Source: Oscillospiraceae bacterium (GTDB taxonomy: Bacteria > Bacillota > Clostridia > Oscillospirales > CAG-272). Taken from it: 64,000 bases of DNA. Below the pieces are notes generated by a model. The model did no database searches. It saw only the letters and a program-made list of their open reading frames with translations, and was not told the origin of the DNA. Positions 30,407-51,887 of this stretch are shown here, piece after piece. Numbering within the stretch: the stretch's first letter is position 1; the number at the start of each line of letters is the position of its first letter. A program made the position numbers and the translations under genes. Location: contig SVTT01000002.1 in the NCBI GenBank assembly GCA_015063625.1, positions 62,001 to 126,000 of the forward strand, given 5' to 3'.

Positions 30407-30423
30407 AATAATGTTCTTATATA

Positions 30424-30518
30424 CGGTTTCTGTAACTGACGGAGTAGTGGAGGGCATTGCCAAACCACGGGGGAGCAGAAATAATAGTGGGGGGAACCCC
30501 TCGCCGACCGTCTGGGCA
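30424..30518 (+). promoter_or_regulatory. ZTP (pfl) riboswitch aptamer upstream of purE
   Basis: aactgacgg ... gtgg ... accacgggggagcag ... cgccgaccgtctgggca matches the pfl core; gene context is de novo purine synthesis plus glyA. Confidence 0.8.
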
Positions 30519-30554
30519 CGCTTGTTCCGCAGGAATCAGTGTGTCTTTTTTTAG
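30515..30554 (+). terminator. Riboswitch expression-platform terminator
   Basis: cacgcttgttcc-gca-ggaatcagtgtg (imperfect stem) followed by a T7 run. Confidence 0.6.
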
Positions 30555-50396: not shown

Positions 50397-50483
50397 GCCG
50401 GAATGATGGAATTGGCAGACGTGCTGGACTCAAAATCCAGTGGTAGCGATACCGTGCGGGTTCGACCCCCGCTTCCGGCACCA
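50397..50483 (+). tRNA. tRNA-Leu (anticodon CAA), CCA encoded
   Basis: Acceptor gccggaa/ttccggc, anticodon arm ctgga-ctcaaaa-tccag, long variable arm, T-arm gcgggttcgacccccgc. Confidence 0.95.
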
Positions 50484-50500
50484 AAAAAGGGGCGCCCGCA
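50473..50500 (+). repeat. 28-bp direct repeat, copy A (tRNA-Leu 3' end plus downstream)
   Basis: ttccggcaccaaaaaaggggcgcccgca. Confidence 0.85.
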
Positions 50501-50671: not shown

Positions 50672-50699
50672 TTCCGGCACCAAAAAAGGGGCGCCCGCA
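50672..50699 (+). repeat. 28-bp direct repeat, copy B (duplicated tRNA-Leu 3' end)
   Basis: Identical 28 nt to 50473-50500, offset 199 bp. Confidence 0.85.
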
Positions 50700-50730
50700 C
50701 GGCGACCTGCGATAAAGCAGGTCTGCCGAA

Positions 50731-50905
50731 CGATGTTTGCCCTTACGGGCAAGTGATGTTGCCTTCGGCAATGATGTTTACTGCGTAAGTGATGTTACGC
50801 CTGACGGCGTAGTGGGCAAACATCACATCACTGCGAGCCTTGGCGAGCAACATCATTACGAACGAAGTGAGTAACATCACTTTTGCGCAAGCAAAAACAT
50901 CACGC
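50731..50905. repeat. Mirror array of four GATGTT and four AACATC motifs separated by small hairpins
   Basis: GATGTT at 50732, 50755, 50773, 50791; AACATC at 50819, 50849, 50873, 50896. Confidence 0.8.
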
Positions 50906-50967
50906 CTTTACCACCCGAAAACAGCATACGGTATAACACACTATACCTTGCAAGCAAGGAAGCGTGC

Positions 50968-50996
50968 AAAAGGGACGAGAAAACCTCGTCCCTTTT
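50968..50996 (+). terminator. Hairpin terminator
   Basis: aaaagggacgag / ctcgtccctttt. Confidence 0.65.
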
Positions 50997-51214
50997 GATA
51001 TTGATAAAAAACTGCTTTACGGTAGGCGCCCATGGGGTTGTATCCTAAAGGACAGTTCTAATAGCACATAATCTACCGACAGGAAAAGCAGAAACTACAG
51101 ATTGATTTTCTGTGATTTTTGTGCTATATTAAGGGTGTGGGCTTAGCCCCATGCATAAGGCGAAACCGGTGCGATAAATGCGAATGATGAATAAGAATTT
51201 GACGGAGGCATACT

Positions 51215-51424
51215 ATGAGAAAATGTTTAAGATGTGAAACGGAAATGGTTGAAGATTTAACCGTTATGGTAACTAATGGCGGTTACGGCGTAGATGTAAG
51301 ACAAAAGGGTATGTTTAAAGGCTCTTTAGGTAAAATCAAATGTGCCGTATGCCCCCAATGTGGATATACGGAAACCTATATTGATGACACGGAAAACATA
51401 AAAAGGTTGATCGAAAAGAATTAA
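51215..51424 (+). CDS. YgiT-like zinc-ribbon protein
   Basis: 69 aa; CLRCETEM...CPQCGYTETYI, two CxxC pairs; AT-rich relative to surroundings. Confidence 0.65.
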   Translation: MRKCLRCETEMVEDLTVMVTNGGYGVDVRQKGMFKGSLGKIKCAVCPQCGYTETYIDDTENIKRLIEKN

Positions 51425-51476: not shown

Positions 51477-51887
51477 GTGAAAAAATTATCTTTTATATTG
51501 ATAATGGCTTTATTGACGATAAGTCTTTTTGGTTGTGGAAATGGATATGTAAACAAATACGCCGCAAAAATGATGCAAACATCATGTTGGGAAGATGAGG
51601 CGAGTATGAAGTTTTCTGATTTTGAGGGTATATACCATTTCAAGTTAAAAGGGGAAAATGATAGCGATCATACCCTTGAATACGAAGCGAGTCTTGACGA
51701 AGGCGAGGTAAATGTGTATGTTGGTGTAAACGGAGAAAACGAGCTGATATTTACAATCAAGGGCGGCGAGTCATACGATAATACAATCGCTTTAGACGAT
51801 AAATATGACGATGTGAAAACGATATACGTTATTGTTGAATCTGAAAATAAAAGTTCAAACGGCGATTTTGAATTCGAATACAACTAA
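51477..51887 (+). CDS. Putative lipoprotein of unknown function
   Basis: 136 aa, GTG start after aaaggag; lipobox-like LLTISLFGCG. Confidence 0.65.
   Translation: MKKLSFILIMALLTISLFGCGNGYVNKYAAKMMQTSCWEDEASMKFSDFEGIYHFKLKGENDSDHTLEYEASLDEGEVNVYVGVNGENELIFTIKGGESYDNTIALDDKYDDVKTIYVIVESENKSSNGDFEFEYN

Follow-up and report, generated by a model that had tools for sequence, protein, structure and literature searches.

A mirrored hairpin array in gut Clostridia, its element family, and its association with PF05635 proteins

In the whole 64,000-nt stretch of the Oscillospiraceae genome analysed here (the window), a mirrored array of eight short tags and interspersed hairpins forms the core of a small, gene-less repeated element. 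This feature is genuine and occurs widely. It is matched in part by an Rfam model and has an unexpected partner gene, which encodes a PF05635 protein; our best reading is that array and protein make up a mobile system related to the intervening sequences (IVSs) of 23S rRNA. The data establish the limits of the element, its repetition between unrelated flanks, its insertion into terminator stems, its architecture, the linkage to PF05635 genes, and the match between the tag class of an array and the clade of the linked protein. That the array is the cis recognition region of this family of small mobile elements in gut Clostridia, acting with the PF05635 protein, is a proposal to which we give about an even chance of being right, as recognition and movement are both inferred. 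No earlier description of such a two-component system was found in the literature searched, and a search of the open-access literature returned no paper that connects PF05635 with arrays of this kind, although this does not prove that none exists.

The mirrored array and its distribution

The core of the array (50732..50901, + strand; 193 bits with covariance model R1) consists of four direct GATGTT tags (50732..50737, 50755..50760, 50773..50778, and 50791..50796, + strand) followed by four inverted AACATC tags (50819..50824, 50849..50854, 50873..50878, and 50896..50901, − strand). A motif search recovered all eight tags at the positions given by the original prediction, and the small hairpins between them likewise lie where it had placed them. 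On the + strand these include h1 (TTGCCC-ttac-GGGCAA, 50737..50752), which rests on the sequence and the pairing alignment, and h2 (TTGCC-ttc-GGCAA, 50759..50771), h3 (TTAC-tgc-GTAA, 50778..50788), h4 (TACGCC-tgac-GGCGTA, 50796..50811), and h7 (TTTTGC-gcaa-GCAAAA, 50881..50896), which rest on arm covariation. The 11-bp pair said to join the two halves is also present, between the array start, GATGTTTGCCC (50732..50742, +), and the array centre, GGGCAAACATC (50814..50824, +). In addition, the first AACATC is followed immediately by a further inverted tag, the ninth in all, which is shortened (ACATCAC, 50825-50831).

GATGTT alone is not enriched in the window (30 found vs. 32 expected), and the signal resides in its clustering and mirror order, not in its frequency. 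The array folds better than 200 of 200 shuffles on both strands (z −4.2 and −5.1). A motif-free scan, which accepted any 6-mer with at least three direct and then at least three inverted copies within a span of at most 260 bp, returned 75 arrays (many of them overlapping) in 1.06 Mb of collected loci and none in block-shuffled sequence. We uphold the view that the array is not a plain terminator, and also that it is not a CRISPR: its intervals are palindromic hairpins conserved between genera and its repeats invert in mid-array, so that the criterion of unique spacers between identical direct repeats is not met. Elsewhere in the window, a ZMP/ZTP riboswitch was matched at 30422-30524 (48.3 bits).

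Similar repeats had been suspected in other gut Clostridia, and the covariance model of the array indeed has matches in 97 of 146 genomes of the source family, belonging to 52 of its 71 genera, so that the absence of homologous arrays from related genomes, which would have refuted the prediction, does not apply. Outside the family, 2 of 299 genomes sampled across the phylum were matched, and the named contigs derive mostly from ruminant-gut Clostridia and Oscillospiraceae metagenome-assembled genomes (MAGs).

The conserved architecture comprises seven hairpins, the 4+4 tags, and a start that is complementary to the centre. In alignment A1, hairpins and tag pairs are 95.8% paired (85.2% when shuffled) and the covariation score is 0.272 (0.086 when shuffled); the covariation of hairpin arms that was to be looked for is evident in 19 pairs changed on both sides, vs. 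11.9 in shuffled alignments. The partner of the array start is the centre and not the last tag, as the first array column is complementary to the centre in all 25 copies but to the last tag in just 17 of 23. Between tag classes the start covaries with the centre, and in arrays tagged GAAGTT the changed first base is in every case accompanied by a change in the centre, not in the last tag. The stems, including the start/centre pair, vary freely across genera and yet stay complementary (TTGCCC/GGGCAA, GTTCCGC/GCGGAAC, CCACCC/GGGTGG, AAATCCC/GGGATTT). Hairpins enlarged by loop insertions, with the stems kept, were seen at three loci (L091 near 1424, L098 near 3298 on the reverse strand, and L071).

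The expectation that GATGTT/AACATC would stay fixed while the arms covary holds in part: the tag is uniform within one array, but from one array to another all its copies switch together. Arrays tagged GATGTT and GAAGTT have homologous hairpins h1, h3, and h7, yet all eight tags differ together, and other tag classes are TGAAAT, TGATAT (with GCGATAT), TGAAGC, GCTAAAT, and TGAATTG. As far as sequence comparison can tell, uniform tags among changing hairpins suggest either that the tag is read in trans or that the copies are kept alike by conversion; the former is favoured because of the PF05635 linkage and the tag/protein match described below.

The PF05635 gene behind the array

Loci in other genera typically run from a tRNA gene through a terminator, the array, and a −10 box (promoter) to the gene. 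The tRNA gene ends 33-66 nt upstream on the same strand in about 25 distinct loci of 60 scanned (distances worked out by hand), and the gene after the array often belongs to PF05635, the 23S rRNA-intervening sequence protein family. Such a gene lies 29-84 nt downstream, on the same strand, of at least 24 of the 148 arrays listed, none of which has a PF05635 gene in any other nearby placement. One PF05635 subfamily in the source family has an array upstream almost without exception, with array scores mostly of 11-20 and a maximum of 9.8 for shuffled upstream regions. Diverged PF05635 members within the same host family have no upstream array, and none was accepted at 30 PF05635 loci from the rest of the phylum; two of these (L308 and L317) exceeded the null in k-mer score and were rejected, as their tag counts are unlike 4+4. 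The same order, with a PF05635 gene after the array, was found outside the family in genome G053. Separately, a type I restriction operon on a Monoglobus pectinilyticus plasmid (L378) has an unannotated PF05635-like open frame between its hsdS and hsdR genes.

When tag class is mapped onto a tree of 61 PF05635 proteins linked to arrays, it changes seven times, where the minimum is six; with shuffled labels the mean is 35.9 changes, and 0 of 200 shuffles came as low as 7. A few tag labels with weak automatic support (L301, L306, L342, L346, L349, L354-L356, and L371) were assigned by eye, and the TTATAT variant of L355 and L371 was counted as TGATAT. Because array and gene are neighbours, this congruence could come from co-inheritance alone. 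Three further facts stand beside it. Several tag classes coexist in one genome (e.g., G034 and G027), and host phylogeny therefore fails to explain the match between tag and protein. The eight tags change together. Finally, the source genome has two intact PF05635 genes (C2:41336-41641 and C5:416-730), whose arrays have precisely the two tag classes to which most of its gene-less copies belong.

The original prediction named a match to an Rfam model as a possible refutation. This condition is partly fulfilled: RF01706 (Gut-1 RNA) aligns over its full length (model positions 1-77) with the left half of the window array (50728..50800, +), including its three hairpins separated by a repeated UGA-tag. 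However, the score (41.4 bits, E 5.6e-7) is below the gathering score of 50, and RF01706 is not itself functionally characterised. Arrays above the gathering score were found at L364, L248, L288, and L045. Gut-1 was introduced as a likely noncoding RNA restricted to the human gut and not cis-regulatory (Weinberg et al., 2010; PMC2864571). With its consensus of UGAAAU tags and three hairpins, Gut-1 is the left half of an array of the TGAAAT class. The Rfam entry covers half an array of one tag class only; its description includes neither the mirror half nor the other tag classes, and it leaves out the terminal repeats, the PF05635 gene, and the sites at tRNA genes and terminators.

It is possible that the array is a regulatory or structured RNA, either a Gut-1 RNA in the original sense or an operator through which the PF05635 gene regulates itself, and that it was spread by unrelated transposition. 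The array lies just upstream of the promoter of the gene, with little variation in distance, similar spacing is seen between arrays and other small genes behind them, half of the array is modelled as RNA by Rfam, and the start arm can pair with either h1 or the centre in a switch-like manner, all of which this explanation would accommodate. However, the array is located upstream of the apparent −10 box and is therefore not in the leader of that transcript, tags and hairpins are kept in copies that lack the gene, and a sigma-70-like promoter was looked for in front of the window array and not found. G-U wobble is also scarce, at about 1% (~14 G-U vs. 9 A-C in ~1,600 hairpin pairs), although the balance of the two mispairs differs by data set (3 G-U vs. 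6 A-C in alignment A1; 11 vs. 3 in gene-linked arrays). We regard an RNA or operator role as unlikely, but it remains a serious alternative to a tag read by the PF05635 protein.

Element limits, copies, and insertion sites

The array predicted for the window is real, but the limits proposed for the feature were too narrow, as the unit that is repeated spans 50701-51031. Copies can be aligned over their whole length between imperfect terminal repeats and thereby delimit a whole gene-less element of about 331 bp (50701..51031, +), which we term type B. Its ends are imperfect inverted repeats, ACCTGCGATAAAGCAG and, from the opposite side, a variant of ACCTACCGTAAAGCAG. The left end is a terminal hairpin with ACCTGCGATAAAGCAG (50701..50728, +) that is paired with a right end 286-323 bp away at seven places in the source genome, and the right end, ACTGCTTTACGGTAGG (51011..51026, −), is an imperfect terminal repeat identified by end-to-end comparison of copies. 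The right module contains an internal terminator-like hairpin, CAAAAGGGACGAG/CTCGTCCCTTTTG (50967..50997), in which the stem sequence varies between copies and complementarity is kept. Other copies are of type A, about 350 bp long with ends GTGATGTCCTTAACGGA. The window copy carries no PF05635 gene and is a gene-less, MITE-like derivative; it meets the criteria for a MITE in being short and gene-less, with terminal inverted repeats, multiple copies, and unrelated flanks.

Sequence searches of the source genome (a 1.76-Mb draft) identified about 25 related copies; at least 16 arrays are tagged GATGTT, and further arrays have other tags. Nineteen type-B copies from several genomes gave 104 well-aligned pairs with identities up to 99.7% (84-99.7% in the best 40 of the 104), and none of the 104 pairs shares its flanks. 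Because these near-identical copies have no flanks in common, we conclude that the element moves or has moved. Complementary A-rich arms enclose 14 of the 19 type-B copies, a few bases outside the ends, compared with 10% when flanks are swapped, and these arms are the stem of a rho-independent terminator that the copy has split. The window copy keeps only a weak remnant of such a stem, a 7-bp pair between GGGCGCC in the left flank (50689..50695, +) and GGCGCCC at 51025-51031, which was read from the sequence and missed by the arm search. The split-terminator target is clear for types A and B, which have terminal repeats; most arrays in other genera have an intact terminator upstream, and their target is not clearly split.

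The suggested check for copies beside tRNA genes or mobile elements showed that arrays adjoin tRNA genes and also sit in terminators. The sites of the family are terminators and tRNA 3′ flanks, and the window element sits in no rRNA helix loop. Plain BLASTN found no match in plasmids and phages, and no match was obtained in viral contigs with the array pattern and the PF05635 protein as queries.

Several further observations concern these sites and ends. In front of the window element, about 27 nt consisting of the 3′ end of tRNA-Leu(CAA) and the first terminator arm (TTCCGGCACCAAAAAAGGGGCGCCCGCA) occur twice, about 200 bp apart (50473-50500 and 50672-50699), as at attachment sites or after local duplication. 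In related MAGs, the short end hairpin ACCTGCGATAAAGCAGGT stands alone in the loop of many terminators (L064, L069, L082, L105, L106, L112, L113, L124, and L131), which are either minimal elements or excision scars. Elements of ~1.5 kb with window-type ends also occur (L077 1267-2816, L104 205-1859, and L121 6481-7955), and in these the place of the array is taken by a helix-turn-helix gene of XRE type, recognised by inspection of its translation.

The terminal repeats on gene-less copies suggest an ordinary transposase, and to this extent they count against the PF05635 protein as the mover. The element might then be an ordinary MITE whose terminal inverted repeats are read by a DDE transposase, with the array a passive passenger or folding aid. 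The existence of two kinds of terminal repeats and of same-end elements with XRE-type genes in place of the array would agree with this, as would the terminator targets without evident target duplication, which recall IS1272, an element that inserts blunt into terminator hairpins without duplicating its target (PMC4923244); a terminator-targeting transposase of the IS1182/IS1272 kind would fit. Nevertheless, no transposase was found between such terminal repeats, and the terminal repeats of IS1272/IS1182 elements differ from those of the array element. IS1182 as the mover was rejected, as its family marker PF05598 is found neither in the source genome nor in any of 20 members sampled from the genus, and the IS1182-like loci in relatives have other ends. 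An ordinary MITE would moreover leave both the concerted tags and the PF05635 linkage unexplained, and we consider it distinctly improbable.

The genes behind arrays vary (PF05635, NUDIX, lipoprotein-like, and unknown), and tandem array-gene-array-gene layouts (L234/L241, L242, L243, and L227) suggest that cassettes behind terminators are exchangeable. The window element is followed by two small genes (51215-51424 and 51477-51887; a weak zinc-ribbon match and a lipoprotein-like product) that resemble the small genes behind arrays of other genera and may be cassette cargo. Besides the tandem layouts and the diversity of genes, the conservation of structure over sequence, as in integron attC sites, would allow the arrays to be recombination sites that border exchangeable small-gene cassettes behind tRNA terminators, and in places arrays do separate small genes. 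However, no integrase was identified, the architecture differs from that of attC, and close relatives were not shown to differ by the presence of one cassette; the likeness is an analogy only, and this explanation seems to us very unlikely.

Movement as REP/BIME-type repeats by a RAYT (Y1) transposase can hardly be upheld and was rejected: a tag beside a hairpin in inverted sets is a REP-like design, and RAYT-like proteins are present in relatives, but the source genome has no Y1 protein, no arrays lie within 1.5 kb of RAYT-like genes, the RAYT gene of one relative is followed by ordinary GTAG repeats, and the array differs in its tags and in its 4+4 order with a start-centre helix. GTAG-tagged REP-like repeats do occur in the genus, downstream of a RAYT-like gene at L200 and in the source genome at L042 and L048.

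A putative PF05635-driven system and its significance

PF05635 proteins are four-helix bundles of the S23/Avd fold; they are widespread, and we know of no function or catalytic activity for them. A structure of the family has been solved (2rld), and homology to Avd, a protein of diversity-generating retroelements, has been reported (PMC10053308). According to one account (PMC4990558), they are known from the IVSs of 23S rRNA, e.g., in Coxiella burnetii, the S23 protein of Xanthomonas is a pentamer, IVSs replace rRNA tetraloops with complementary arms at their borders, and mobility of IVSs with the help of the encoded protein was once suggested. To the extent covered there, IVSs and the array family are alike in being small elements with a PF05635 gene, the one replacing the tetraloop of an rRNA hairpin and the other splitting a terminator hairpin. 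In contrast to IVSs, the array family is not found in rRNA, has a 4+4 array with a promoter behind it, and commonly includes gene-less copies; the available part of that account does not mention a hairpin array.

In the mechanism we propose, a PF05635 oligomer would bind the eight tags, probably on single-stranded or extruded DNA. The hairpins would space the tags regularly and keep them in register, and the start-centre helix would close the left half. Once bound, the complex could move the element into other hairpins, much as IVSs replace rRNA tetraloops, either unaided or together with a nuclease of the host or of a transposon, and gene-less copies might be mobilised in trans by PF05635 proteins that share their tag class. 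In this scheme, binding, strandedness, the enzyme that cuts, and the direction of transfer are each a matter of inference. Against the model stand the unknown catalysis of S23 proteins, the unclear split-terminator target of most arrays in other genera, and the lack of arrays at PF05635 genes outside the family. Our confidence in the mechanism is moderate.

More tentatively, and with somewhat greater doubt than trust, we put forward a wider reading, in which PF05635/S23 four-helix-bundle proteins are sequence-specific recognisers of the mirrored array, each clade with its own tag, that cause elements and cassettes of small genes to insert into terminator hairpins or behind them. On this view, Gut-1 and the 23S rRNA IVSs would each be a piece or a relative of such an element.

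To our knowledge, the origin and movement of rRNA intervening sequences have been an open question since the early 1990s. The PF05635 family is here tied to a defined cis element whose tag changes with the protein, which makes for a testable system, and Gut-1, an orphan RNA motif from gut metagenomes, gains a context. The interest of the finding is high because a protein family without known function and an orphan RNA motif meet in this one system, which belongs to a large family of interspersed elements that shapes terminators and the flanks of tRNA genes in common gut Clostridia.
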